Shown here piece after piece: positions 39,246 through 60,040 of a stretch of 64,000 nt of DNA; the stretch's first letter is position 1, and the number at the start of each line of letters is the position of its first letter. The DNA comes from Gautieria morchelliformis (Eukaryota > Basidiomycota > Agaricomycetes > Gomphales > Gomphaceae): NCBI GenBank assembly GCA_015179125.1, contig WHVA01000157.1, positions 62,001 to 126,000 of the forward strand, written 5' to 3'. Made by a program: the position numbers and the translations under genes. A model generated the notes under the pieces. The model saw nothing but the letters and a program-made list of their open reading frames with translations, was not told where the DNA came from and ran no database searches.

Positions 39246-42200
39246 CTGCAAGAGCTGGTCACAGCTATTTTAGAAACCACAGAGGAGATGGTACCAAAAA
39301 GCAGGCCATCAGCGTATGCGAAACGCTGGTGGTCCCTGCAACTGACACAAGTCAGAATGGAAACAAGGCGGCTCGGAAGGAAATCATATGTGAACAGGAG
39401 AGATCCAACACATGTGGCGCACAAGGAATACAGGACAGCTAGGAACCGCTACGCTGAGGCCATAGAAAATTCAAAAAGGGAGCACTGGAGAGACTTTCTC
39501 GAAAGTATAAACCAAAAGATGATATGGACCGCACACAGATATGCCTCGGCAGACACAAGCGATGGGGGGCAGACACGCGTCCCAACATTGACGGCACAGA
39601 AGGCAAATGGCACAAAGACCATAGCAGAAACCAATGAACGGAAGGCAGAGATGCTATTCACTACCTTCTTCCCCAAACCAGGGAACACGCCAGAGCAAAT
39701 ACCGACCCAATACGAGTACCCTCCACCAGTGTTCGAATTCCGACCAATATCAGACGAACAAATCCGAAGAGCTGTAGACAACCTCAACCGATTTAAAGCA
39801 CCGGGAGAGAACGGTATCCCAAATGAGCTCATAAAACAATGTATTGACGTCCTTCTACCCTACATAGGTCCTCTGTTTCGTGCAACGTTCGACCTGCGAG
39901 TATACCCGGCAGAATGGAGAAACTCCACTACGAAAGTCCTTTGGAAACCAGGAAAAGCCAATTATACTGCTCCTGGAGCATATTGACCGATCGCCCTATT
40001 GGACACTATAGGAAAAGTGTTATCAGCATGCATTGCAGAGGATCTGGTAAAGATGACGGAAAAGCATCGGCTCTTACCAGATAACCATTTCGGATGCAGG
40101 CCGGGAAGAACGACAACCGACGCAGTGCACTACGTAGTAGCAGAGGCGAAGGAAGCATGGAGGAGGGGAAAGGTATTGGGGGTATTATACCTGGACATCA
40201 AGGGAGCATTCCCAAGCATCATGCTGGATAGATTGACTCACAATATGCGCAAAAGGGGAATACCTAGGGAATACATGGACTGGATACAAAGAAAGGTCCA
40301 GAACAGACTTACAACTGTCAGCTTCGAGGACTACATGTCGGTGACCAGACCTATTGAGCGCGGCATGGACCAAGGATGCCCTCTATCCGCAATTGCGTAT
40401 CAGTTCTATAACAGCGACCTGGTAGACATGGTGCGGGGGAAGAAGGGCGAGGGATGCGTAGGTTTCGTAGACGACACCACCATCTTCGCAGAGGGATAAG
40501 ACCTCAGAGAGGCATTCGAGAAACTCACAGACATAATGATCAGACCAGGCGGAGCGTACAGCTGGGTGGAGAACCACCACTGTCAATTTGCAGTGGAAAA
40601 ATTTGGCTTGATGGGGCTAACCAGATGCAGAGAGAAGGATCCATCCAAGCCAGGCAGAACCAGGCCGACAGCGAGACCATCGACAAGGATAGGGCAACAC
40701 ATCGTAAAGCCCACGGCAACACACAAATTCCTGGGGGTGATAATGGACCAGGAATTGAGGTTCAGGGACCATGTCAACTACGCGCTGAAGAAGGGAGAAG
40801 CGTACATAGGCCAATACAGAAGGCTCGCAAAGCCCTCGAGAGGCATAACAGCTAAGCATATGAGATACTTAACAGTAGCGGTCCCAAGGATGTTGTATGC
40901 GGTTGATATATTTCTTGTACCTGCTACAGAAAGGAGCAAAGGAACTAAAGGCTTCGTGAACAAGCTAGCCAGAATACAACGGCAGGCGGCACTGGACATA
41001 ACAGGAGCGCTCAGAACTACGGCCAGCGACACGTTGGACGCACACGCCAACCTCCTCCCATTTCCACTGTTGGTGGCCAAAGTAGTGCATAGAGCGGCAG
41101 CTAGAATCGCATGCCTACCTCCAAATCATCCGCTAGCAGAGAAGGCGAACAAAGCGGCAAAAAGATACGTGAAACGCCACCGATCGCCGTTACACGAGAT
41201 AATGCACGCGTTCAGCTTAGAGCCGAAAAAGATGGAGAAAATCCTGACCGTAGTGCACGGACCCAAGTGGGCGCCGGCCTTCAGCGTAAGAGTCCCACCA
41301 AACAAGGACATAGCGAAGGAAGAGCTAAACACGGACGAAGCGGAGGTGGTGGTCTACACGGACGGATCGAGCATAGAGGGCGCTGTGGGGGAAGCAGCCG
41401 TGCTGTATAGGAATGGAAGAGAACAGAGGTCGGCGAGACTATACCTGGGCCCGGACAGTGAGCACACAGTATTCGAGGCCGAACTGGCAGCGGCGGCCAT
41501 GGGAGCGAAGATGTTGACAACGGAGAGGGGCGGAAGGTACACAATAGCACTAGACAGCCAAGCAGCGATCCAAACAACCCGCAAGGAAAAAGCCATCCCC
41601 GGACAATACCTTATCAATGCGCTACACAGAGAAGTACAGAATATCGTAGAACGGCAGACAGGAGCCAAGGTGGTTATGAGGTGGGTACCAGGGCACGAAG
41701 GAGTGAGAGGGAACGAAAGGGCGGACGCAGAGGCAAAGAAGGCAGCAGGGGGACGCACCAGCGAAGAACGACACATACCACCCGAGTGCAGGGGCGCACT
41801 GCCGATAAGCAGAGCGGCGGAGGTTCAACGACACAACACAAAGCTGAAACAGGAGGCACGAGCACAATTCGCTAAGTCCCCTAGAGCTTATTTCGCGCTC
41901 GAGATTGACCCAACGATGCCGTCAGCAGCTTTCTCAAAAATCACAAAAACGATGCCACGGAGGCAGGCGAGCCTACTCATACAACTGAGAACGGGGCACG
42001 TACCACTGAACGACCACCTGTACAAGATAGGAAAGGCTCAGTCGCCCCTTTGCCAAGCCTGCAGGAACGCGCGGGAAACGGTCCATCACTTCCTGTTTCG
42101 ATGCCCGGCCTATAGAGAGCAGAGGAAGAGATTGGAAAAGAAGTCAGAACGCTGTTGGGAGGACACAAAGCGACAGAGCACCTATTCAGGTACATACATG

Positions 42201-42303
42201 ACACGAAACGATTCGAGGAGCAGTACGGAGACGTATCGACGCCACCAAGGAAGGAAAAAACGGGTAGGAGATAGACCGAGGAGAACAGAGGAACGCACAA
42301 CAA
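39246..42303 (+). pseudogene. LINE copy 2 ORF2: RT, RNase H, CCHC
   Basis: RT motifs LNRFKAPGENGIPN, LLPDNHFGCRPGRTTTDA, YLDIKGAFPSI, RGMDQGCPLS and catalytic FVDDTTIFAEG, with stops at 39,984 and 40,498. From 40,536 the frame is open for about 600 codons: thumb, RNase H (VVVYTDGSS, FEAELAAAAMG, YTIALDSQAAIQ, RWVPGHEGVRGNERADAEA), then CQACRNARETVHHFLFRC. Near 42,145 a frame change alters the last 60 residues compared with copy 1. RNase H catalytic Asp and Glu are present. Confidence 0.88.
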
Positions 42304-42428
42304 ATGACACGAATACGCACCTCGCCTACGCAGGCACGGACAAGCTCAGGGCCTAGCCCATCGAGTACAAGCGGAGACAGAGAACGAAGGGAGAGGAGGA
42401 GCGAGAGAACGGCAGAAAATGTAAATAT

Positions 42429-43696: not shown

Positions 43697-44087
43697 ATGT
43701 CTCGCAACGACACGCACCCTATGAGCTCGCTGTATGGAGTGATACTTATACTTATTGGCCTCCTTTCCACTTCAGTTACAATGCCAGCAGGCTTTTCCCG
43801 CGCCCCTCGCCCCCAAAGTCCACGCCTCCAAAGTACAACCGCTGCACCGTATTCTCCAACTCTCCACCACAACACCCCATGGCCCGCACACTCGACGACT
43901 CCATCACATGCGCCCCAGCATGCCCGGCCCCGTACGGACACGCCCCTCGAATCTCATTCCCGGCCCAACGTCCTCTCTGTACTCAGCCCCGCCCGCCCCC
44001 GACTACCGCCGCCCGTCTCCGGGCCCTGGTGGCTTTGCACCCCTTCCCGCTACGTGGAACTGGGAAACCTGCCTCGAGCATTGTTCG
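43697..44087 (+). CDS. Pro/Ser-rich ORF cut at AT-rich boundary
   Basis: GC-rich coding-like DNA. One frame gives MSRNDTHPMSSLYGVILILI (a possible signal anchor). Another gives SNLIPGPTSSLYSAPPAPDY, PSPGPGGFAPLPATWNWETC, which looks like real low-complexity protein. Base composition switches sharply to AT-rich at about 44,088. It is probably the 5' part of a host gene truncated by the AT-rich island; the family is unknown. Confidence 0.35.
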
Positions 44088-44682
44088 TAAGATATCTACC
44101 TTTTTTGGTACTACCAAGACAACCGGAGACAGGTCTGTTATTAAAATAGGAGATCTGATAATAAATATAGAAGTCTCCTTCTGTAATGACAAAAAGGTTT
44201 TCTTTGAACAATGGTCAGTTTCTAGTGCACAATGGCTTACCCTTCCAACTCACTACGGTTCTGATGAGCTGTATAATTTAATAATAGGCAGCATCTCAGG
44301 TTTTAGGGTTTTGGAATGGGTGTTAAGTCCCGATTCCCATTGTATAATTGTTGCAAAGGTTATATTGGATGGTAAAACAAAGTATCCTTTAGTTGTAGGA
44401 TATGATAAATGTAATGAATGCTGTATATATGATAGTCTGATAAAAGGCATGATGATTCCCTTATATTCTAACTCTCAACCACAAGAGACAATTACCGTCT
44501 ATGGCATACTTGTACTACAAGATGGAAGGATGAAGGTCTACAACACAAATAATGAAAGGAGACATCGAACTCCTATTATTTTATATAGACCATTAAAAAT
44601 CATAGAAGATTCAAAGGAGGTCTGTGACATTGTCAAATATATGCTTAAGCATATACTCAAAAGTAGTACAAACCTTCTCTAA
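44088..44682 (+). CDS. Unrecognised AT-rich ORF
   Basis: The frame ending at 44,682 (open from 43,879) has about 195 codons in AT-rich DNA: KIGDLIINIEVSFCNDKKVF, LPTHYGSDELYNLIIG, FRVLEWVLSPDSHCIIVAKV, VVGYDKCNECCIYDS and YGILVLQDGRMKVYN. It looks like a compact beta-rich globular protein of unknown type. The Pro-rich upstream part of the same frame belongs to the flanking GC-rich DNA, so the native start is missing or lies in an exon elsewhere. A tRNA-like sequence follows 11 bp after the stop, on the other strand. Confidence 0.45.
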
Positions 44683-44692
44683 ATCTCTGATT

Positions 44693-44762
44693 AACCAGGC
44701 CAGGGTTCGAACCTGGGACCCCGTTAGTATATAGGGTGCTTTACCAACTAAGCTATTTGGTC
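44693..44762 (-). tRNA. tRNA-like sequence, degenerate
   Basis: Contains an A-box (TAGCTTAGTTGGTAAAGCA) with a paired D-stem and a B-box in CCAGGTTCGAACCTGG. The anticodon stem has two mismatches, position 33 is not T, and the acceptor strands pair poorly. It is probably a tRNA pseudogene or a tRNA-derived element, not a working tRNA. Confidence 0.45.
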
Positions 44763-45290
44763 TATTACATTTTACAACTTGGTGAGGTAATATATGAGTC
44801 ATAAGATAGTGTACAAGCTTTGTTTAAAAGCTTAGTTTCTACATTTTGATATTTATCATCAAGAATCTTCATAGTAACATTGCTAAATATTATGATTTTG
44901 ACTCTTCATATAGAATGACTTATATAACCAATACATTCACTTTCATGAGTAGTAATTATACTTTATTCTATCTCTAACACCATAAGATCTGATTTTGGTA
45001 GAAATACATTCATATATCAGTTACCATGGAATATGATGATAATTCCAGTACTTGAATTAATATTTAGAAACAAACATGTATGATACATAATTCATCAATC
45101 TAATAGGATTTAAATTCAACTTCCTGGTTAAAGAGGAGAGTGGATTCAGATTCCATGATAATAATACCATCTTATGTCTTTATACTCTATGGGTCATTTG
45201 GAAATTCAGCTTATATGCTGTTCCAACATTTTATCAATGGATGGACAAGGTTCTATGACTCACAAATGTAGAGGTCACAATACCTCATCT
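44763..45290. other. AT-rich spacer
   Basis: No supported gene. Possible decayed 3' continuation of the minus-strand repeat-module protein at its right. Confidence 0.3.
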
Positions 45291-45299
45291 TCTAGGATT

Positions 45300-47071
45300 A
45301 TTGGTGGGCACCTATCCTCAAGAATATTTAACATTGATCTCTCATCTACCTTTGATCTATCCTTTTTTTCCATGGCCATATCTAACATTGATCTCTCATT
45401 ATTGGAATCTAATCTATTCTGCTTGCGTATCTCATCATCAATCTCAAATATCGATCGAGTATCGATATTTCCTTTCTCATCAAGGGTATCAAATGTTCAG
45501 ATCTCAGCTAGTTTTGATTGCTTATCTGGTTTTGATCTAGTTTTACTCATTTGAGGAGACTTATTTACCAAACTATCCTTTGTACTATTCTTATCTTGTT
45601 GTTTTGTTAGGAGGTTTATTTGATTCTTATCATTGATTCCCTGATATGATACTAGATAATTACATCTAAGATATGCTGTTAAAATGGATACTTCTTTTCC
45701 ATCTATATATACATCTATATCTGCCAACTCATAGTAACTATCCTCCGAATCGTGTATTCTACAACTTGCTGAGACTCTTTTGATATCTCTAGCATGATGT
45801 GATTTATCTGGTTGTTCTGTCAGCAGATTTATTTGATTATTATCATTGACCTCATGATACTAGATCATCCTCTTCATCATATGCTGTTAAAGGGGATATT
45901 TCTTCTCCATCCATAAATACATCCATGTCTGCTAACTCAAAGTAATTATCTGCTGAATTATATACCCTACAATTTTCTGTGATATTTTTGATATCAAATT
46001 TAATGTTTCCCCAATTGATTTCTTTCTCATCAAGAGTATCAAATATTGAGATCTCATCGGGAGTAGATTGCTTTGGCTTCTTATCTGGTTTTGATCTAGT
46101 TTTACTCCTTTGAAGAGACTTATTTACCAAACTATCCCTTGAGATCTCAACTAGTTTTGATTGCTTATCTGGTTTTGATCTAGTTATACTCCTTTGAAGA
46201 GACTTATTTGCTGAACTATCCTTTGCAGGATTCTTATCTGGTTTTGTCAGGAGGTTTATTTGATTATTATCATTGACCTCACATGATACCAGATAATTAC
46301 ATGCATAATATGCTGTCAATTTTTTCCATCCATATATGCATCCATGTCTGCTAACTCATAGTAATTCCCTTCTGAATCGTGTATTCTACAACTTGGTGTG
46401 ATTCCTTTGATATATCTAGCACGATCCAATTTATCTGGTTTTGCTGTTAGCAAATTTATTTGATTATTATCATTGACCTCATACGATACTAGATCATCCT
46501 CTTCATCATGTGCCGTTAAAGGGGATATTTCTTCTCCATCTATAAATACATCCATGTCTGCTAACTCAAAGTAATTATCTTCTGAATTATATACCCTACA
46601 ATTTTCTGTGATACTATTGATATCAAATTTAATGTTTCTACCGCTTATTTCTTCTTGAGTAAGCTGAGATTCCTTTTGAGCATGAACCATTGGTTCTGGT
46701 TTGTGGTGTTGTTTTGTCATAAAATTGATTCGTTTATCTATGATATCATATGATACCATGTCTTTCTTTTTACGGTACACTGTAGACAACTTGTGAGGTG
46801 TTTCATCTATAAAGACATGCATATCCTCTAGATTATAGCAATTATCTTGTGAATCATAAAATATAAAACATCCTGCCATCTTTCTAATTCGTAATCCTAC
46901 ATGCTTATTATTTTTAATCTGCTCTCTTAATTCTATAATCTCTCTACATTGTTCCTTAGATATCTGTTTGAGATTTGATATTATCTCATCTTTTTCTTCT
47001 ATCCATTCTGTGATTCTGTCAATCCTTTTAGAGAGCTTGACAATCTGGGCTTCCAAGGCTACTAGACCCAA
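45300..47071 (-). pseudogene. Repeat-module protein, five modules, broken
   Basis: Read right to left from 47,071: a coiled-coil start (LEAQIVKLSKRIDRITEWIE, LKQISKEQCREIIELREQ), then repeated modules of about 65-80 residues. Each module has a Cys, an N-Y-x-E-L core, DMDVF(I/M)DGEE and LVSYEVNDNNQINLL. Modules start near 46,880, 46,600, 46,390, 45,970 and 45,770. Between them are repeated linkers (SLVNKSLQRSKTRSKPDK). A frame break at about 46,317 and stops at about 45,850 and 45,497 interrupt it. Further decayed linker-like coding (IFDTLDEKG) reaches about 45,300. I do not recognise the module. Confidence 0.6.
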
Positions 47072-47485: not shown

Positions 47486-48865
47486 ATGAATGAGTCACTC
47501 CTTGAAGAATATCAAATGCTGATGAATGAACATTGGGGGTTTCTTGATGAAAAATGGCCTTTGTTGAAGCCAACTAAATTTCATAGATCAGGACTAAAAC
47601 CTGTTTCTGAAATAGATCTCGTCAAGAAAAAAGTATTAGAGAAGCTTGGACCAATACCAGTGTTTTTCTTCCTAGTAGTGTTGTTTCTATTCAAGCACCA
47701 CCCAGGTCCATATCGAAATGTAGAGAAGGGACTATTAATACTCTATCATCTGCTTGAAGGTTGTACATTTGATGATATGAACAGATTTATACCTGGGAGT
47801 ACTTTTCATGCGATCCATCAGAGTTTCTTTGGACATGAAAAGGACCTTAATAATGACTTAAATGACAAAATCATTGATTTGTTGGCTCATATGTTTTCCA
47901 ACATAAGGATTAGAATATTATCTGCAAAGGATAATAATAAGGAAGAACTATTCAACACAATAACTTTATTCCTTGATGGTCATGACACAAGAGGAACAGA
48001 AATAGGAAGATCATCTAAAGTACAATGGTCACATAAACACAGAAATTCTGGAATGAGAACTCAAGTAATTATGGATTTTCATGGGATGTCTTTGATTGTT
48101 TCTGATTCATTGCCATGTAGCCACTCTGATGGAGCAATGTTCACAGAAATGAACTTAAGAGATAAGATGGATAAGGCAGATCGTATGGCTCTTGATGGAG
48201 GCTATACACTATTTGTGAAACAAGTAGTAAAGCAAGGTAGATTGAAAGAAATGAATTTCTGCCATCCAATTCGGAAGCAGAAGAATGCTGAACTATCAGA
48301 TATGGAGAAGCACTACAATGAAAGATTTGGTAGTTTCAGATCAAAGATAGAAAGCTTATTTGGAGAGTTAGGAATGACATTTAAGAAGTTAAATAATTAG
48401 AAGCCTGTCCAAACATCAAATCCTAAGATATTCTCTTTGCAGTTTAGATTAGCATGCTTGCTGCTTAATATCAAACGGTTTGTTAAATTAGGAGAGCTCC
48501 AAGCACAACCTAATCATATGTCATGGATGGAGAGCCATTTTGACTATCCATCAACTGATACCCTCGACTTTGAGTCACTGAGAATCTCAACTCTAAAGGA
48601 TATTACAGAGGATGCAAAGAAAATGTCTAAGTATCAAGCACGATTATTAGCAGGTACAGATACAAATGAATCTGACCAAGATATTGAAGATACATATGAA
48701 GTGAACAAAATAGTAGATCATAGGACAAAAGGAAAGAGAAAAGAATACTTAGTTCAATGGAAAAACTATGAAGATCACACTTGGGTAAGGGAGGAAGATA
48801 TTGATACAACGCAGTGTATACAGGACTACATTAGACGTCAAAAGAAGAAGGGTAGACACTACTAG
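47486..48865 (+). pseudogene. DDE transposase with chromodomain, copy 1
   Basis: From the ATG at 47,486, 304 codons to a TAG at 48,398; the same frame then continues to 48,865. The DDE-like core is FLDGHDTRGTEIG (first Asp), RMALDGGYTLFVK (second Asp) and FGSFRSKIESLFGELG (Glu). The C-terminus after the stop gives QFRLACLLLNIKRFVKLG and a chromodomain (YEVNKIVDHRTKGKRKEYLV, QWKNYEDHTWVREEDIDT). About 45% identical by eye to copy 2 (53,030-54,347, minus strand). The order looks like a PIF/Harbinger-type nuclease with a targeting domain. A single nonsense codon breaks it. Confidence 0.78.
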
Positions 48866-49437
48866 GAGGATGTTCACATTGACAACAATGTATATTCTTC
48901 TAGGATATATTAGATATCTTTTAAAATATCAACCCTAACCAAATTCATAATCTATCATTTTGAGCAACTTGTATATTGTGGACATCCTAAATTTTTTTGA
49001 ATGTTCTGATTTTGTAAAAATATGGTTGTATGTGCTAAAGCATGGTGTGTATTGACATAACAGAGCAATTTCAGAGAGGATGTGGATGACTATATATTAA
49101 AAGTATACATGAAACATGTTAGATGTACAATCACAGAATATAGAAGCAAGTATGGACAATACCTGTACTATATTATTATATATGGTTGAGAGATCTGATT
49201 AGAAGGTATGTTTAAAATAATATGCATGTATAGTACAAATATATGTAACTATTGGTGTTTAGACAATGGGGTATACACCCTTTCCTGGGGGAGCAGCAGA
49301 CTGTGAGAAAGAACTTTGGGGCTAGGATTAAGCATGCCTTACAGGTGCTGGCAACTGCCTCAATTTTGATATATTTTATGAAATATAGAGGAGCTAAGCT
49401 ATATATACTTATATATGACATTTATAAACATCCTCCT
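48866..49437. other. AT-rich spacer
   Basis: No supported gene or repeat boundary. Base composition becomes less AT-rich from about 49,250. Confidence 0.35.
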
Positions 49438-52284: not shown

Positions 52285-52320
52285 TGCATTTGGATTTGAT
52301 TATGGTGGTGCATTCCTTAT

Positions 52321-52996
52321 GGAGGGTGTTTGGAATTACTATAATATCAGATGTTTACTAATAAAAGTGATGTTCCCATAAAACTCCATCTTTAAATAGT
52401 GATATCTTTTCTGAAACTATTCCATCATTAAAAAGCAATTCTGGGAATAGTTCTCCATGTTACACGCTAAACAATTAAAGGTCATTTAATAGAATTCATT
52501 GTATATGATTTCCTTCTGTTTATAGATATCTGTTAATACTTTTGTTGGTACTCCATTTTTTAAAAACTAAACTGCAGTTCTTTCCATGTAAAATATGTAA
52601 GATATTATTGGAGATTTTTCATGCTACAACCTTCCTAATTAAGCAAACCCACCCAGGTATTCTTAGTATGTTGAATCAAATAGAAATACATTCTAGTTAA
52701 CTCACCCATTCCGAGGTAACACGTTTGTATTTAAAGGTGTCAATGGCATACACATGTATGAAATGTACTATCTAAGGGTGTCTACCTTTTAAAATTCTTA
52801 AAGTTCTAACTCACCACAGTGTTTGATAATATATTCAGCTCTTAAAAGATGCTTTGTTTCACAATGTACAAATAAGTTTTAAAATTTCCAAAAGTTTTAA
52901 AATCTAAATTATGTTTAAAATAGATTTCAAGTATTTAAATGATCTTAAGGAGATATTAGAGTTTGATACTTCTTATAGTTTCCGAACAACCTCCTT
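52321..52996 (+). repeat. Left direct terminal repeat
   Basis: Starts GGAGGGTGTTTGGAATTAC and ends CCGAACAACCTCCTT. About 98% identical by eye to 58,043-58,719. Its own two ends are imperfect inverted repeats of about 22 bp, so the repeat is itself MITE-like. Confidence 0.92.
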
Positions 52997-53027
52997 CTTA
53001 AAATTTATCAGACTTCATCTTCCTTCT

Positions 53028-54347
53028 GTTTCCAATATTCATCTATACACTCCATTGTATCAAAGGTCTTAACACCTTGCCAAGTTGCTTCTTCATATCC
53101 CTTCCATTTCACAAGATATTCTCTTAACTTCCTCTATGGTCTATTATTTCCTCAATCTCATATGCATCCTCCTCCATCTCTTCATCATCACCCAATGTTA
53201 TACTCAGGAACTCTCTTTGCAATTTGAGTAACTCCTGAGCATTACATCTGCTATCCTTCAATGATGGAAGATTTTCATATGTCTCCATATTTTCCTCTTT
53301 CCAGTAGTCAAACTCTGGTGACAACCATGAAGAGTGATGAGGCTGAGGTTGAATGTTACCCAAATTAACAAACTTTTTCACATTTAACAAGAGACATGCA
53401 AGCCTAAATTGGATTGTGAATACCTCAGCATCAGAAATACTTATACCGCCTTCATTGCTGAGTTTCTTAAATGTGGTGACTAGTTCTCCAAAGACAGCTT
53501 CAATCTTAGACCTAAAGCTTCCAAAAGTTTTGTTGAAGGTTTTTTCTTCATTTGACAGGTCTATCCCTTTTGATTTACGTATAGGTACACAGAAATTAAG
53601 CATATCTAATTCAGTAGTACTTGTTATCTTGCTAAGATACTGGGTATATCCTCCATCTAATGCTATACAATCAAGCTTATTAATATGCTTTTCTAACTTC
53701 ATCTTTCCAAACATAACTCCATCTGTATTATCTTTACATGGTACAGATTTAGATGTGAATAAAACCATTCCACCTGGATCGATACAAGCCTGTATACGAA
53801 GTCCAGAATTTTTGAATTTATATGAAAACATTCGTTCACTCTTCTCACCAATAAGAGTTACTCTAGTATCGTGTCCATCTATCATTAATGTTACATGTCT
53901 AAATAATGGAGGATTCTTCTGTGCAGAATGAATACGTATATCAATTGTTGAAAACATAGAACTTAGCATAGCTGTGATCCTTTTATCAATATCATTGGCT
54001 TGATTTATGTAGAATTTTCTAAAAATATCGTAATAACTACTTTTGGGTATAAAGGCTGACATATCATTTAAGGAATAGCCTTGTAGTAGTTGATATAATA
54101 TTAAAAGTCCTTTCTCCACATTTCTGTAAGGCCCAGGATACTCTTGGGTAGGAAAGATTACAACAAGGAAGAAAAAGACGGGAATAATACCAAGTCTCTG
54201 AAGAACAATATCTTTAACATGGCTTATTCTATTGACAGGTTTAGTATCAGACCTGTGGTACTTTGATGGTTTGATTTGAGGCCATTCCCTATAAAGGAAC
54301 TTCCATTGTTGATCCATCAGCTTATTAAATTCTTCGAGAAGAGACAT
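53028..54347 (-). CDS. DDE transposase with chromodomain, copy 2
   Basis: ATG at 54,347. The product of about 400 residues matches copy 1 throughout (PVFFFLVVIFPTQEYPGPYR, NVEKGLLILYQLLQGYSLND). DDE residues: LMIDGHDTRVTLIG, CIALDGGYTQYLSK and FGSFRSKIEAVFGELV. The C-terminus reaches YEIEEIIDHRG, then a one-base shift near 53,130 separates the rest of the chromodomain (LREYLVKWKGYEEATW, to about 53,028). Copy 1's TAG is absent here, so the catalytic part is intact; only the chromodomain junction is damaged. It probably mobilises the composite element. Confidence 0.78.
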
Positions 54348-54420
54348 AATAAATGCTATAAACTATGGTTAGATGGATGAATATTCAATTTAATAGATCT
54401 GATTGTGGTCTATTGGATTT

Positions 54421-56094
54421 TTAAATATTATTCTCTATTCTTAGTCTTCGTACTTTGTCAATTATTGATTCTTCATCTGATGTTTCTCTGCTATCAGATT
54501 GATCACTAAGGTTACTTAGAGATTCTCTACATAGTTCCACATTAATGTCTCTACCTCCAGGTATTAAGTTCTGAGTTATGAAATAGGTCTTCTTGGTTTT
54601 ATCAATCATTAACTTACGAAGTTGTTCTCCACACCTGATTTTCAGAAATGAACTGTCATTACAATCTATTACATTGAGGAATAAATATTCTCTTCCTCTC
54701 CATTCAGACATTCCTTTTGCTATAGCCTGATATCTTGAATATGGTTCCAATATGCTATATGCCGCTTGGTAACCATTGAAGCGTGTTATATCTTCTAAAT
54801 CTTCTGACTCAGATACTTCTATTATCTGTGCTAGAGTATTATCACTTGGTCTAATCCTAAAATCGGGCCAGCCTATATTAATCCCTTGATATTCTACTAG
54901 TCCTACATCTTCTGGATATAGCTGAGCCCTACTTTGTGGATATAATCCCCTCTGAGGACCTGGGATAAGAGTAATTGCATTAGTTACCCTCCTATATTCT
55001 TTACAGGTTTCTCCATCAATATCTACAATGATAAGTTTTGTAGTCATTTCATTGAAGCTGTAGTTTGCTATTAATGTTTTCAGGTCATCATTTTGTGGTA
55101 TTGTATTATAACACCCTTGCATTTTCTTTGTTATGGAGTTCCACCAGTGACAATATGCAAACATATTATCACTCTTTAGGTACACCATTATTACTTGGTC
55201 CTTATGTATTTTGTCAATAAGTCGGCTCCATTGACTATCAAATGAGGCTTTGTAAAATTTGCAACCTTGTAAGTACTTTCTTTTGGTTCTGGTGAATTTC
55301 TTAATATAATAATCTAAGTTGCGAATTTCTTGACCATAGAACTTCATTTCTATCCTTGTAAGTCCAACTTTTCTGGTTCTTTCAAATGTTCTCTCCATAG
55401 AATCTGTAGGATCTACAAACATATTATGTATTCTAGATCCTAGAGTGGTTCTAACACTAGAGCTCTCTAGCATCTGGATGAACTTGTTATACACTTTAAT
55501 CCTAAGAAGAGTTCTTCCAGTATCTTCTGAAGGATCTCTATTATAGAAAGATATACAATTCTTCCCTACCTTATATAGATCACTGACAATGAGTCTTCTC
55601 TCTATTCCTCTCTCTAGAATATGTTCTTCTACTATCTCCCTATTTGTTATATATGGAACATCTTGAGTAATGTCAATGTCGTGGAGAATCACATTGTTAG
55701 ATTTTATATTTTCAAGGAAATAGAGAACTTTCTCAATACTAACCTCTGATAGTGAAATCTTGAGAGAGAAGTATTGAGTCCCTTTTGGAGCAATGTCATC
55801 CTTTATCAATTCTGAAATTCCTTTATGGGCAGCAAGAAGATCTATCTTGAAAGAATTGTCAAAGTGATCTTTGCATTGATGACGTATCTCATCTATTCTG
55901 TTCTTACCAATGGACCAGAGAATAACACTGTCACAAAAGATTGGAACATCATAGTCAAAGGAGGGTATTAATACTTTGAAATCAGTTGTATAATCTGCCT
56001 CTGCTATATCTGGAGGATTATGCTCCCTAATAATAGAGACAATTGTACGTATTATCCTATTCCTTGTCTCTCTAGTACTATTAATAGTATTCAT
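54421..56094 (-). CDS. Putative replication initiator (Rep-like)
   Basis: An uninterrupted 557-residue protein from the ATG at 56,094. I see no transposase motif. The first half has NVILHDIDITQDVPY, then LLRIKVYNKFIQMLESSSVR, then GLTRIEMKFYGQEIRNLDYY. An Asp-x-Asp strand, a KVYNK strand and a TRIE strand in this order resemble rolling-circle initiators of the Rep_trans type, with tyrosines just downstream as possible nicking residues. The second half (IGWPDFRIRPSDNTLAQIIE, GREYLFLNVIDCN) is unfamiliar. The assignment is inference from motif order. The neighbouring SF3 helicase supports a replication role. It is divergently placed, 93 bp from the zinc-ribbon ORF. Confidence 0.5.
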   Translation of the reverse strand: MNTINSTRETRNRIIRTIVSIIREHNPPDIAEADYTTDFKVLIPSFDYDVPIFCDSVILWSIGKNRIDEIRHQCKDHFDNSFKIDLLAAHKGISELIKDDIAPKGTQYFSLKISLSEVSIEKVLYFLENIKSNNVILHDIDITQDVPYITNREIVEEHILERGIERRLIVSDLYKVGKNCISFYNRDPSEDTGRTLLRIKVYNKFIQMLESSSVRTTLGSRIHNMFVDPTDSMERTFERTRKVGLTRIEMKFYGQEIRNLDYYIKKFTRTKRKYLQGCKFYKASFDSQWSRLIDKIHKDQVIMVYLKSDNMFAYCHWWNSITKKMQGCYNTIPQNDDLKTLIANYSFNEMTTKLIIVDIDGETCKEYRRVTNAITLIPGPQRGLYPQSRAQLYPEDVGLVEYQGINIGWPDFRIRPSDNTLAQIIEVSESEDLEDITRFNGYQAAYSILEPYSRYQAIAKGMSEWRGREYLFLNVIDCNDSSFLKIRCGEQLRKLMIDKTKKTYFITQNLIPGGRDINVELCRESLSNLSDQSDSRETSDEESIIDKVRRLRIENNI

Positions 56095-56187
56095 TTCCTA
56101 TCACTAGTATATCAGTTCATAATAATTCAATTTAGGAAAGTAAAATGATTGATGAACAGTATAAACTAATCTTTTAACTAAGACAGA

Positions 56188-56500
56188 ATGTCAGGTAAGA
56201 AACCAGATCTAAATAAAAAACTAGGTGACTTCTTAAAGGACAATGATTTAGAAGACTACATCATAAAACCAATTACTAAGAATGACAAGAGGAAAACATT
56301 AGGAGAGTATATGAAAGAAAATGGAATAGATGATATAGGTGTCTTTAGTATAAAAGATGAAGATGAAAGAGATGTAGTTAAAGAAGTTCGTATTTGCTTT
56401 AAGTGTAAAAAATCTGATGTTGAATTTTATGAGTCTAGTGCTACTAGGTATTGTAAAGGGTGTTGGAGGGAGGAACATGAAGGCATACAATTTGATAATC
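56188..56500 (+). CDS. Zinc-ribbon ORF, possibly detached N-terminus
   Basis: ATG at 56,188. MSGKKPDLNKKLGDFLKDND and a related segment KRKTLGEYMKENGIDDIG are followed by a four-Cys ribbon (CFKCKKSDVEFYESSATRYC, KGC). The frame stays open to 56,685, but from about 56,500 it is the antisense of the helicase gene, so native coding probably ends there. The helicase on the opposite strand loses its C-terminus at the same point. An inversion with a breakpoint here would explain both. It may be the N-terminus of the helicase-primase or a small DNA-binding protein. Confidence 0.45.
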
Positions 56501-57368
56501 CTCTTGAGTATATTTTATCATTACCTGTCAACTCTTTAATTCTACCTACTTGTATTTTTTCCTCAGGATTGGGTTCTTGTAAGAAAACAGCCAACTTATT
56601 CTTTGCATATTGTATATCTGGAGTAGCATCAGAAGAGTTAGCTCTTTTACCAGTAATCAAGGATGTGGAAAGACAAGCTGCATAATCACCAAGAATAGAT
56701 GAAATAAATCTTTGCATTAATGTCTTAGCATTATTTCCTTTCCCCCACCATACATAGAATACCTTATATTTGTTATAGCCCTCAAGCATAGAAGCACATG
56801 TTCGTATGAAAAAATCTAATACATCATTTCTTGGGAAAATTTGTTTTAGTATCTTCATGAATTCAACTAAATCCTCATCTCTATATTTCTTTTTATATTT
56901 AACCCCGCATGTCATTGAAATATAGTCAGAAGATAAGGTCTTTCTAAAAGATTTGGAGTTAATATCATAGGTCCCGTTCTTCATTCCCAAAAGACCTACA
57001 TTAGAGTTAAGTTTGCCTACAAATTTAGGATCTCCCAGCTTATAAGATAAGGCCTTCATCAACCTCATGGTAGTAATAGAAGAACCAAGATATCTGATAA
57101 TGTCCTTAACAGGAATGTCATCCTTGGGTATATCATCACGGAGAAAAGATACAAATGTTTCCGATATGATATTCCACAAGTATTCACCCCCATCCTTCTG
57201 CCAAGTTCCATCTTCAAAATACCACCATTCTTTATCGGAGTGAACTAATTCTCCAACAAGAAGTTCATACAGAACACCAACAAGGATATTATCACAATGG
57301 CTACCTATCCGTTCTATGCAAGATAGCTCTTGTAACTTAGATAAAGCCTTCTCATATCTGCCAGTCAT
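56500..57368 (-). CDS. D5-like SF3 helicase, C-terminally truncated
   Basis: ATG at 57,368. The first 150 residues (EWWYFEDGTWQKDGGEYLW, FVGKLNSNVGLLGMKNGTYD) match the D5_N region that precedes viral superfamily 3 helicases. Walker A is YVWWGKGNNAKTLMQRF, Walker B is LAVFLQEPN, and sensor motif C is ELTGNDKIYSRGL. Coding is native to about 56,500; the remaining codons to 56,427 are antisense to the zinc-ribbon ORF. Such helicases unwind DNA during replication of large DNA viruses, virophages, transpovirons and some plasmids. The loss of the arginine-finger region suggests that this copy is inactive. Confidence 0.75.
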
Positions 57369-57450
57369 ATTCTATCATATACTATTACAGACCATAAAAA
57401 ATCAATTTCTAAATATATATCTAACAACACAAATATTATCAATAATTTGG

Positions 57451-58005
57451 TGATATGAATATCACAGAATATAAATTGTATAATTTTACCACAACAAAAT
57501 AATATGATATATAGGGAAGGGGTGGGGGGTCACCGACCTTGGGTCTGGATGCCAAACAGTAACATGGCTAACCGCTTAGGGGGGTCCCCGGTGGTAAAAC
57601 TCCCCACTTCAGCATCACATTTTTACCACTATCATTGATAACATATAGATCAACATATCTTCTCACTAATTATATATAAATGTTAAAATATCACTGTTTT
57701 GACCCTGTATTATTAACAAACCCTGTGTATAAACTGAGAACAGTATAAATATGTCAAAACAGTGATATTTTAACGTTTATATATAATTAGTGAGAAGATA
57801 TGTTGATCTATATGTTATCAATGATAGTGGTAAAAATGTGATGCTGAAGTGGGGAGTTTTACCACCGGGGACCCCCCTAAGCGGTTAGCCATGTTACTGT
57901 TTGGCATCCAGACCCAAGGTCGGTGACCCCCCACCCCTTCCCTATATATCATATTATTTTGTTGTGGTAAAATTATACAATTTATATTCTGTGATATTCA
58001 TATCA
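57451..58005. repeat. Long hairpin: 253-bp inverted repeats, 49-bp loop
   Basis: Left arm 57,451-57,703 and right arm 57,753-58,005 are reverse complements with one mismatch that I can find (T/C at the TAAA(T/C)GTTAAAA step). Each arm contains a GC-rich block (AAGGGGTGGGGGGTCACC and AGGGGGGTCCCCGG) in otherwise AT-rich DNA. It lies between the helicase gene and the right terminal repeat. Confidence 0.93.
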
Positions 58006-58042
58006 GCCTGTTTCTAAATGAAGTGAACATATTGTCCTACAA

Positions 58043-58719
58043 GGAGGGTGTTTGGAATTACTATAATATCAGATGTTTACTAATAAAAGTGATGTTCCCA
58101 TAAAACTCCATCTTTAAATAGTGATATCTTTTCTGAAACTATTCCATCATTAAAAAGCAATTCTGGGAAATAGTTCTCCATGTTACACGCTAAACAATTA
58201 AAGGTCATTTAATAGAATTCATTGTATATGATTTCCTTCTGTTTATAGATATCTGTTAATACTTTTGTTGGTACTCCATTTTTTAAAAACTAAACTGCAG
58301 TTCTTTCCATGTAAAATATGTAAGATATTATTGGAGATTTTTCATGCTACAACCTTCCTAATTAAGCAAACCCACCCAGGTATTCTTAGTATGTTGAATC
58401 AAATAGAAATACATTCTAGTTAACTCACCCATTCCGAGGTAACACGTTTGTATTTAAAGGTGTCAATGGCATACACATGTATGAAATGTACTATCTAAGG
58501 GAGTTTACCTTTTAAAATTCTTAAAGTTCTAACTCACCACAGTGTTTGATAATCTATTCAGCTCTTAAAAGATGCTTTGTTTCATGATGTACAAATAAGT
58601 TTTAAAAATTCCAAAAGTTTTAAAATCCAAATTATGTTTAGAATAGACTCCAAGTATTTAAATGGTCTTAAGGAGATATTAGAGTTTGATACTTCTTATA
58701 GTTTCCGAACAACCTCCTT
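58043..58719 (+). repeat. Right direct terminal repeat
   Basis: Near-identical to 52,321-52,996, same orientation, with a few substitutions and one extra G. The sugar transporter pseudogene follows directly. Confidence 0.92.
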
Positions 58720-58759: not shown

Positions 58760-59573
58760 CTATTGTCATTTCTCCATTGTTTCCCTTTTGTACTTTGTGC
58801 TTACTAAGACTGCACCCTCTGTGTGCTCGAATGCAACCTGCTGCTTGATCTCGGCGAATTCAAGCCGTACGAGTTCATTGTTGGCATCCCCGCCAGCGTG
58901 CACATCTGCGAGAATTTCAAGCACCTCGCTCTCCCTGTCGTTGTCAATCAGCCATCGTGGTGATTCGGGGAACCATACTTTCAGCAAACATCAGTACATC
59001 ATTTTGAAAAATACAACTGGGAAAGTTTGGACGCATCCCTACGGAGAGGATGATGGTGGGGATAGCCTGAAGACCCCATGGAATTCAGAAGGAGGCCTTG
59101 CCATTAATGTAAGAGCAACTGACTAACAAGCCATGAGTTTTTTTTAACGACGATATACAGGTAGTCTCACATTGAACAATGTATTGGATCATGTTGAGGT
59201 GATACACGTCAGTGGCTCGATAGCTGATACAAGTAAAGGCTTCCTACATTCCCCATGTAATCGACCACTGCTGCAATGAAACCATACGACCACAGATAGC
59301 AGGCGCCGTGATCTCGGACTGATATAGTGGAACGGTTGTGGATGCAAGACCAACAGATAAACCGGTGATGACACGTCCAGCCACGAGCATACCATGGTTC
59401 ACAGCCGCACATTGCAGGATGGCGCCTATAACCCAGATCCAACCAGACAAAATGATTGTTTTCTTTCGGCCAATTGAATCGGCGAGTTTGTAGACGGCCA
59501 ATGAGCCAACGAAACTGCCAGCCGGCATCGCACCGACAATCCCACCTTGATACTCGGGATGGGTAACATGCAA
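58760..59573 (-). pseudogene. Sugar transporter (MFS) pseudogene
   Basis: Read from right to left, the first block (59,573-59,244) gives HPEYQGGIVGAMPAGSFVGS, LADSIGRKKTIILSGW (the inter-helix DxxGRKK loop) and GRVITGLSVGLASTTVPLY. After an intron, ASF-stop-IPWGLQAIPTIILSVGM (about 59,040-59,095) carries a TGA at 59,085 where Arg is usual. A further intron leads to WFPESPRWLIDNDRESEVLE (58,987-58,766). These are signature motifs of the fungal hexose/quinate permease family. Both ends are lost: the 5' end at about 59,580 to repetitive DNA, and the 3' end at 58,720 to the composite element. Confidence 0.82.
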
Positions 59574-59589
59574 GAAACGAGTTGGTGTT

Positions 59590-60040
59590 CAAGTCTTACT
59601 TTCACTGTGGAAACAAGCCCCCTGATAAATTAGTGGGACGTCCATACCCGGTTTTGGTGGATGGTCCACCACCAGTAGATGGACACTCCACCGGTCCAAT
59701 GGTGGACCATCCACCATATACTTCTCATGGTAAGTCCACCGGCCGCTCAGGGGTGCATGTCCACATCCACTTACAGTACATGGACTATCCACTCACAATA
59801 AGGCCTTTTTTTTGGTGGATTTCATTTCCATTGACATATGTGTAGGATTATCCATTAAGTCTTCCAAGTGATATACCAGTAATAATCATTGGATTATCAA
59901 TGACTATTACCATAAATAAAAACAAAAGAAAAAACACTACCCACCTAGATGCCATCTTGTATTCTAAGCACATACTTACATCCCAGCTTACCAATGTATA
60001 AGGCGTCCTTGTAAAGGGATTCAAGGGCGGAAAATTATGC
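59590..60040. repeat. GTCCACC-rich palindromic segment
   Basis: Many copies of GGTGGAC/GTCCACC in both orientations. GGTGGATGGTCCACC (59,656-59,670) and its exact reverse complement (59,701-59,715) could form a cruciform with a 30-bp loop. Related TCCACC sequences recur near 61,505 and 61,570. Possibly a MITE; no gene. Confidence 0.5.

Follow-up and report, generated by a model that had tools for sequence, protein, structure and literature searches.

Composite DDE elements carrying replication genes between long terminal direct repeats in the fungus Gautieria morchelliformis

Results and Discussion

The genome of the truffle-like fungus Gautieria morchelliformis contains a mobile-element family that is framed by long direct repeats and holds a DDE transposase gene together with replication genes. 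The repeats are referred to here as long terminal direct repeats (LTDRs), and each has inverted ends of its own. Two complete copies of the form LTDR-INT-LTDR, about 8.8 kb long and with the same gene set as each other, are found at C175:202991-211748 (8758 bp) and C451:63974-72783 (8810 bp). In these separate copies the DDE transposase, chromodomain, Rep-like protein, D5 helicase and palindrome all lie between the same LTDRs, the gene order is alike and target duplications are present. An incomplete copy lies in the stretch of 64,000 nucleotides that was analysed (the window; contig WHVA01000157.1, positions 62,001 to 126,000), and outside a deletion in the window copy the complete copies are 94-98% identical to it. 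An initial annotation of the window had proposed that DDE transposase, Rep, helicase and hairpin form one mobile unit. The complete copies and a related family (family C) bear this out, and the genes do co-occur in copies other than that of the window, on C175 and C451. A DDE relative lies within 1 kb of nine of 13 Rep loci, a count that excludes a captured fragment (C154:217 kb, C222, C293, C311, C399, C648:31 kb and C449:4 kb) and two short Rep pieces (C449:8 kb and C648:20 kb). Copy-to-copy dN/dS was attempted, there were too few changes between copies.

The window copy

The window copy is a damaged, decayed member of the family, without about 2.4 kb of sequence, the end of the helicase and the chromodomain frame. 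Its LTDRs, on the transposase side (52321..52994, forward strand, 674 bp, with ends GGAGGGTGTTTGGAA and TTCCGAACAACCTCC) and on the palindrome side (58043..58717, forward strand, 675 bp), share the same inverted ends and are 98% identical. The direct repeats described as bounding the unit are present, but they are not exclusive to it, as 40 LTDR places were scored in the genome out of 92 candidates. In a tree of the scored LTDRs, from which three of the 40 were left out (L073, L078 and L083) and in which the bootstrap had not settled, the two LTDRs of C175 are sisters (100/98), as are the two of C451 (98/84), as expected if each insertion begins from one LTDR. The two window LTDRs are not each other's closest relatives, which suggests that the window copy is probably recombinant.

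The transposase reading frame (53124..54347, reverse strand, 407 aa) is Harbinger-like, as had been proposed, and matches the PIF/Harbinger-type DDE_Tnp_4 family (PF13359) with an E-value of 2.2e-9; the corresponding values are 3.3e-8 for a family C-like sequence on C279 and 2.1e-11 for a family B sequence on C771. The chromodomain attributed to this transposase is present in sequence, but in the window copy its remainder (53011..53133, reverse strand) is out of frame with the DDE reading frame. The C175 reading frame that corresponds to it matches the Pfam Chromo family (E 1.4e-7). A Rep-like protein was also correctly annotated, and is encoded by an open frame of 557 aa (54421..56094, reverse strand).

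The 5' part of a small zinc-ribbon gene (56188..56491, forward strand, end approximate), which encodes 127 aa in the C175 copy, is cut by the internal deletion, whose junction lies at 56491..56495 relative to the copies on C175, C451 and C180. The same deletion accounts for the state of the helicase gene (56427..57368, reverse strand, 313 aa), since the missing 2.4 kb is present in these three other copies. The annotation of a D5-type SF3 helicase holds as to class (Pfam D5_N, E 1e-9), but the window protein is truncated: its first 291 residues match those of the 468-aa C175 protein, it diverges at residue 292, and it keeps Walker A and B but has lost Walker C and the arginines after it. The reported hairpin of about 500 bp was confirmed as a perfect inverted repeat (57451..58005), in which 253-bp arms (57451-57703 and 57753-58005) are 100% complementary and separated by 49 bp. 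This palindrome may act as a replication origin.

Proteins of the element

The Rep protein resembles rolling-circle initiators of the pT181 type in motif order and acidic residues, and probably in fold. In Foldseek the top four matches fall among Rep_trans-type rolling-circle initiators (4cwc, 4cwe, 4cij); absence from the structure match lists was not counted as evidence. A serine, Ser182, is invariant in all 25 Rep sequences where the tyrosine of motif II (T/SxYxG) is expected. It lies 13 residues ahead of the motif III tyrosine in nine of the 25 sequences and 12-21 residues ahead in the rest. On our reading Ser182 would occupy the position of the motif II tyrosine, an assignment helped by what we take to be the spacing in a bacterial Rep. 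Acidic residues are conserved at D55 (21 of 22 non-gap sequences), D141 (24/25) and E249 (24/25), and we read these as the probable metal residues D, D and E of the Rep_trans motifs quoted in PMC5714925. Rep_trans proteins have the closest solved folds, and by our own reading the order of motifs N', I, III and IV is alike, whereas the Gautieria protein differs in its invariant serine and in its lack of a match to the Rep_trans profile (PF02486). A whole-genome search with this profile gave nothing at E <= 1, and the control in Bacillus subtilis was positive.

Profile searches of Pfam, PHROGs and PDB with Rep gave nothing above a cut-off. The weak matches below it were Thioredoxin_8 (E 0.067), two phrogs (E 0.006-0.007) and, for the Rep of C695, DUF2666 (E 0.0013). 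The Rep family comprises 36 proteins at E <= 0.001 among 5.8 billion searched, none of which has a precomputed Pfam domain. No relative of Rep was found in bacterial and archaeal genomes or in plasmids, and none was found for Rep or the helicase in three scans of IMG/VR that each relied on 2-6 short peptide patterns. The Rep family would be a new initiator-like family.

The helicase is, by its sequence, a D5/SF3 helicase. It matches profiles of the ASFV C962R protein (E 2.6e-21) and the poxvirus D5 protein (E 5.6e-10), and in a separate scan Pfam D5_N (E 3.5e-9). We take the Walker motif strings of the C175 protein to be A at 207, B at 261 and C at 305. A phage search with the helicase returned 457 distant records, the best of which are 24.6% identical. 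A search for a second Myb/SANT DNA-binding protein found no Pfam match in the 19 open reading frames scanned, but the small open reading frames match nothing above a cut-off. In a test for His-Me finger proteins, a 118-aa zinc protein of C175 matched a phage endonuclease VII family weakly (phrog_1035, E 1.9e-4). A 364-aa protein of the complete copies has only Gautieria relatives, and its predicted fold (pLDDT 33) was not used. Any likeness to 30K movement proteins was judged by eye alone, and we make no claim of it.

Related families

Two further families are present in the same genome, and in all three the DDE gene is located inside INT. The repeat DNA of family C is unrelated to that of family A, to which the window copy belongs, and family C again has a DDE-chromodomain transposase and Rep with a palindrome of about 500 bp beside the LTDR. 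Rep and a palindrome beside an LTDR are found on C175, C451, C180, C695 and in the window. Comparison of the assembled copies thus shows that DDE-chromodomain transposase, Rep and an LTDR-adjacent palindrome are associated in two diverged families. AGGGGGGTCC and TTTACCAC follow the same order in the palindromes of families A and C, for which the best BLAST E-value is 0.09, and we treat a motif common to both as a lead only. Family B has LTDRs and a transposase of the same lineage in the form LTDR-INT-LTDR, and the copy read contains neither Rep nor palindrome nor helicase. The replication genes would therefore not be needed for mobility.

Repeats and target sites

Many LTDRs lie outside the known copies, and 33 of these were scored. 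The spacing of the 40 scored places, of 92 candidates, gave no apparent tandem multimers. The initial annotation had held that repeats common throughout the genome would speak against the unit. They are indeed common, but this does not refute the unit, since KolobokP, a published composite transposon, likewise has solo repeats (PMC9587614). Adjoining 3-mers are identical at 24 of the 33 LTDRs outside known copies. When two rows with duplicate flanks were merged, 23 of 31 distinct LTDRs had identical 3-mers, compared with a mean of 3.2 and a largest value of 11 in 20,000 shuffles. By our own count nine of the 24 duplicated 3-mers have the form TNA, and most others are likewise AT-rich.

The outer 3-mers are TAA/TAA in C175 and ATA/ATA in C451. 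The window copy had been credited with outer TTA duplications. This is doubtful, as the adjoining 3-mers are TAT and TTA and no target duplication is clear. At C872, an uninterrupted, diverged relative of the window insertion site, the sequence is CCTTACTTACTC, and the two TTAs may therefore be older than the insertion. The TTAT/TTA form is also seen next to three further LTDRs, of which two have flanks in common. The search for empty sites succeeded for C175, whose target has an unoccupied relative at C134 where the joined flanks are continuous and TAA is present once, but no place spans both halves of the window copy's joined flanks. For the family C copy on C695 the joined flanks are uninterrupted in all 40 scored places (827 candidates). 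The unoccupied sites found for C175 and C695 lie in repeat relatives.

How the element may move and replicate

The window element may be a decayed copy of an integrating replicon, that is, a PIF/Harbinger-type composite DDE transposon with a plasmid-type replication module in its INT; we give this interpretation an about even chance. The low GC of the element (0.33, against 0.51 in its surroundings) is in keeping with it. The LTDRs would recombine, or would never have been doubled, giving a circle of one LTDR and INT. Replication would be started by Rep on recognition of the palindrome, a sequence able to adopt a cruciform structure, and in family A the SF3 helicase would unwind the DNA. In the manner of a translocatable unit, the circle would then be inserted by the DDE enzyme, which would join the LTDR ends with a target in the chromosome and produce LTDR-INT-LTDR and a 3-bp duplication. 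Solo LTDRs would be left by recombination between LTDRs or by transposition of an LTDR alone. One-LTDR circles were not observed.

Alternatively, the element could be a conventional cut-and-paste transposon of composite structure, comparable to KolobokP but with a Harbinger-type enzyme. Rep, helicase and palindrome would then be cargo or aid repair and copying at the donor site, and there would be no extrachromosomal replication. Composite DDE elements with solo LTDRs are already known (PMC9587614), and the family B copy fits such a transposon; mere cargo does not explain why Rep and palindrome occur together beside the LTDR in two diverged families, and we consider this alternative possible but somewhat unlikely.

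It is improbable, in our judgement, that the element began as a free plasmid- or virus-like replicon that acquired an LTDR at one time and has since used solo LTDRs to enter chromosomes by homologous recombination, the role of the transposase being confined to moving LTDRs. The abundance of LTDRs outside complete copies, the low GC of the element, the numerous metagenomic relatives of Rep and helicase, and two Reps and one helicase apparently on the same 54,482-bp metagenome contig would all agree with such an origin, but the DDE gene is inside INT in all three families. This route and direct transposition are not separated by the data because the unoccupied sites found lie in repeat relatives.

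A bolder form of the integrating replicon, on which we place still less confidence, is a nuclear integrating fungal plasmid that exists as a one-LTDR circle, has a long palindrome as origin, enters the chromosome by a chromodomain-guided DDE transposase and uses a new class of rolling-circle-type initiator, in which the invariant serine (or a cysteine two residues before it) replaces the tyrosine nucleophile.

That two independent MITE-like repeats flank unrelated genes by chance, or that the unit is an assembly artefact, is extremely improbable. Such an origin would fit the commonness of the LTDR and the lack of a sister relationship between the window pair, but the separate copies on C175 and C451 have the same order and target duplications, and family C contains a comparable unit. 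Chance flanking by two MITEs was rejected as contradicted by the complete copies.

Relationship to known elements

KolobokP elements are composite-like DNA transposons of animals (Kojima and Bao 2022, PMC9587614) with the form LTDR-INT-LTDR, LTDRs (about 450 or 660 bp) that each carry short inverted ends, a DDD/E transposase in INT and many solo LTDRs with target duplications; the authors discuss a circular intermediate. The Gautieria element shares this form, the inverted ends on each LTDR and the solo LTDRs with target duplications. KolobokP has a Kolobok transposase and a His-Me finger nuclease, whereas the Gautieria enzyme is DDE_Tnp_4, and the abstract and passages of PMC9587614 name no Rep, helicase gene or palindromic origin.

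The suggestion that an initiator-carrying transposon is without precedent did not survive, as a Rep-like gene and transposase genes occur together in a repeated element, a geminivirus-like transposon, of the ectomycorrhizal fungus Tuber melanosporum (Liu et al. 2011, PMC3198968). That element has a geminivirus-type Rep, 37-bp inverted ends and no obvious target duplication, and LTDRs, a D5 helicase and a palindrome are not mentioned for it in section 8 of PMC3198968. Teratorn, a 180-kb fusion of piggyBac with a herpesvirus in fish (PMC10175614), likewise joins a DDE transposon with a replicating DNA element, but with a whole herpesvirus rather than an 8.8-kb plasmid-like module. PIF/Harbinger elements, as described in PMC12730594 and PMC12477816, share the DDE_Tnp_4 enzyme and 3-bp target duplication; the Gautieria element adds the chromodomain fusion, LTDRs and replication genes, and its targets are only partly TNA. 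Composite DDE elements and an element with Rep and transposase are therefore already known, and the combination of LTDRs, DDE-chromodomain transposase, Rep, D5 helicase and palindrome was not found in the openly licensed literature, judged mostly by titles and the starts of abstracts.

The replication module is present in two of the three families of this genome and absent from the third, which provides a natural comparison of its role, and at 8.8 kb the element is small enough for gene-by-gene testing. Because the transposase has a chromodomain, insertion targeted to marked chromatin can be tested directly. If it is an integrating replicon, the element would represent a missing middle between cut-and-paste transposons and the self-replicating plasmids and viruses of eukaryotic nuclei, and this family may replicate extrachromosomally in addition to inserting into chromosomes.

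The window element and its repeats

The direct repeats, inverted repeat and three open reading frames (ORFs) of the initial annotation were confirmed in the window sequence (contig C179, 62001-126000) at the positions it had assigned. The direct repeats (52321-52994 and 58043-58717) are termed long terminal direct repeats (LTDRs), a name taken over from the terminology of the composite DDE transposon KolobokP. Both start with GGAGGGTGTTTGGAA and end with TTCCGAACAACCTCC and so carry inverted ends of their own. Across the window, GGAGGNTGTTNGGAA is matched exactly at these four LTDR ends and nowhere else. The LTDR was searched against the genome of Gautieria morchelliformis, a member of the Gomphales (Agaricomycetes; 122 Mb, 1113 contigs), giving 92 candidates, of which 40 places were scored. 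Elsewhere in the window, judged by eye, a fragment at 59209-59592 (reverse strand) resembles a sugar transporter of the major facilitator type, and ORFs at 40053-42356 resemble a reverse transcriptase of the LINE type with RNase H.

Copies and gene content of family A

Besides the window element, the 40 scored places include two LTDR pairs about 8.1 kb apart on the same strand. These copies measure 8758 bp (contig C175) and 8810 bp (C451); a further copy, on C180, is one-ended. The window copy and these copies are 94-99% alike in alignment, except that about 2.4 kb is missing from the window copy. The gene set first annotated in the window recurs in the complete copies on C175 and C451; this family is called A.

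The family A ORF set is a composite of C175 and C180. It begins with a DDE transposase (DDE_Tnp_4), followed by a chromodomain and a rolling-circle-initiator-like protein (Rep). Next come two zinc-ribbon proteins, of 127 and 118 aa in that order, with a 364-aa protein between them, and then a D5 helicase of 468 aa, the palindrome and the second LTDR. In a protein search, relatives of the 364-aa protein were found in Gautieria only. The 118-aa protein (stretch L056, 5837-6193) weakly matches phage endonuclease VII (E 1.9e-4), and a link to the KolobokP nuclease is possible.

No family A copy is claimed to be intact, because the chromodomain lies outside the DDE frame in the C175 and window copies, and C175, C451 and C180 each have a broken Rep. 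In the C771 (family B, Pfam Chromo E 1.2e-9) and C279 (family C-like, E 3.1e-7) copies a single frame encodes DDE and chromodomain together. In the C180 copy (L058, 6467-7078) a family B LTDR begins where Rep breaks off. Two family A remnants (C715:89745-92832 and C41:264-2177) hold 1.3-1.8 kb between a 36-bp LTDR-side stretch and the palindrome, a stretch that the window copy lacks.

The family A helicase has profile matches to ASFV C962R and poxvirus D5, and matches phage primase-helicases at low identity. One relative (P0050) is annotated in Ramaria rubella, and the family A protein has a shorter N-terminus than relatives such as P0039 (653 aa). In the window copy the protein diverges from its relatives past Walker B.

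Rep and DDE loci in the genome

Genome searches gave 40 matches for Rep and 102 for DDE. The Rep locus count leaves out two short Rep pieces and a captured helicase and Rep fragment inside another repeat (C154:217 kb, C222, C293, C311, C399, C648 and probably C449). The captured fragment consists of one palindrome arm and the helicase start joined to the Rep end (L050-L053, L031, L032); it has spread within the other repeat, and the alignment of C154 with C311 spans 3 kb. A DDE relative lies within 1 kb of Rep at nine of the 13 remaining loci (C179, C175, C451, C695, C279, C249, C248, C538 and C154:48 kb), and at C180, C727, C827 and C621 none does.

Target duplications and empty sites

Among 33 LTDRs that lie elsewhere than in the known copies, 24 are adjoined by identical 3-mers. 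The 33 include some LTDRs with damaged or misplaced ends and L064, which adjoins element-internal sequence and is therefore part of a remnant copy. Merging duplicate flanks leaves 23 of 31, whereas 20,000 shuffles gave 3.2 on average and never more than 11. The outer 3-mers are TAA/TAA in C175 and ATA/ATA in C451. The family C copy C695 is flanked by CAA on both sides and, by eye, is inserted within retrotransposon-like coding sequence.

The joined flanks of C175 have an unbroken counterpart on C134, in which TAA occurs just once. The joined C695 flanks are uninterrupted in all 40 scored places (827 candidates). These unoccupied relatives of the C175 and C695 targets are other repeat copies, not alleles. 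The joined flanks of the window copy gave zero uninterrupted places in the genome. The outer TTA duplications annotated for this copy are doubtful, since a diverged relative of the site suggests that its insertion made no target duplication.

Families C and B

The family C copy on C695 is 6431 bp long, with LTDRs of 559 bp (98.6%) and a 514-bp palindrome that touches one LTDR. It encodes a 463-aa Rep, DDE-chromodomain pieces and proteins of 98 and 221 aa; no helicase was recognised in it. Related LTDRs and a palindrome occur in C249 in an altered arrangement.

A family B LTDR is also present in the window (48865-49436, 572 bp); its start coincides with the stop of a gene for DDE-chromodomain. 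The unit reaches from 49436 back to at least 45.4 kb, and a search for its left LTDR found none. This LTDR gave 502 candidates in the genome. Among the 40 scored places, 26 stop close to the proposed ends, at most 16 bases away on the left and 7 on the right, and are probably solo LTDRs; the other 14, including the window's own, run into the transposase gene. The copy on C771 (L086+L042) is a 6797-bp unit of two LTDRs and an internal region, which encodes DDE-chromodomain as well as a protein related to the 221-aa one. Rep, helicase and palindrome were searched for in it and none was found, and its outer 3-mers differ (TAG and TAA).

The 221-243-aa protein common to families B and C (window 44077-44805; L060 7059-7820; L086 3462-4193) is 80-85% alike in DNA comparison and has no Pfam match; the ORF list of family A does not include it. 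A 187-aa ORF of repeated units, seen by eye (window 46316-46879), adjoins the family B transposase, and DNA repeats occupy the same area (45.5-46.7 kb).

Association of Rep with the palindrome

Rep and the palindrome go together, since both are present in families A and C and neither in B, where the absence refers to the one copy analysed in full. Against this pairing, no palindrome is seen in the stretches analysed at C279 and C538, two loci with a degenerate Rep. DDE identities are 48.8% between A and B, 50.9% between A and C (represented by C279) and 50.9% between B and C, so they are silent on which family is oldest. Families A and C have Rep and DDE in opposite order, a difference compatible with rearrangement or with separate capture. 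The palindromes share AGGGGGGTCC followed, 44-49 bases on, by TTTACCAC (window 57578-57587 in family A; L062 2864-2873 in family C), a possible origin motif (BLAST E 0.09).

Mobility and a proposed mechanism

The genomic copies demonstrate that the composite units with 3-bp duplications are mobile, and that a replication-type module accompanies the palindrome. We infer that a circle with one LTDR would replicate from the palindrome and would be integrated by the transposase.

Sister LTDR pairs are expected under this scheme, because each insertion would start from a single LTDR. A tree built from 37 LTDRs joins the C175 pair (100/98) and the C451 pair (98/84) as sisters, and does not so join the two window LTDRs. 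Gene conversion would equally yield sister pairs. The evidence for a single-LTDR start is only suggestive, because there are two informative pairs and, on a plain count, one of them is no closer than a solo LTDR.

Alternatively, the replication module may not be needed for mobility. The strongest argument for this is LTDR architecture without such a module, described for KolobokP (PMC9587614) and found likewise in family B of the same genome.

Composite DDE elements have been published (PMC9587614), as has an element from a fungus that combines Rep with transposase genes (PMC3198968). The union of LTDRs, DDE-chromodomain, a Rep_trans-like protein, a D5 helicase and a palindrome was not found in the open literature searched.
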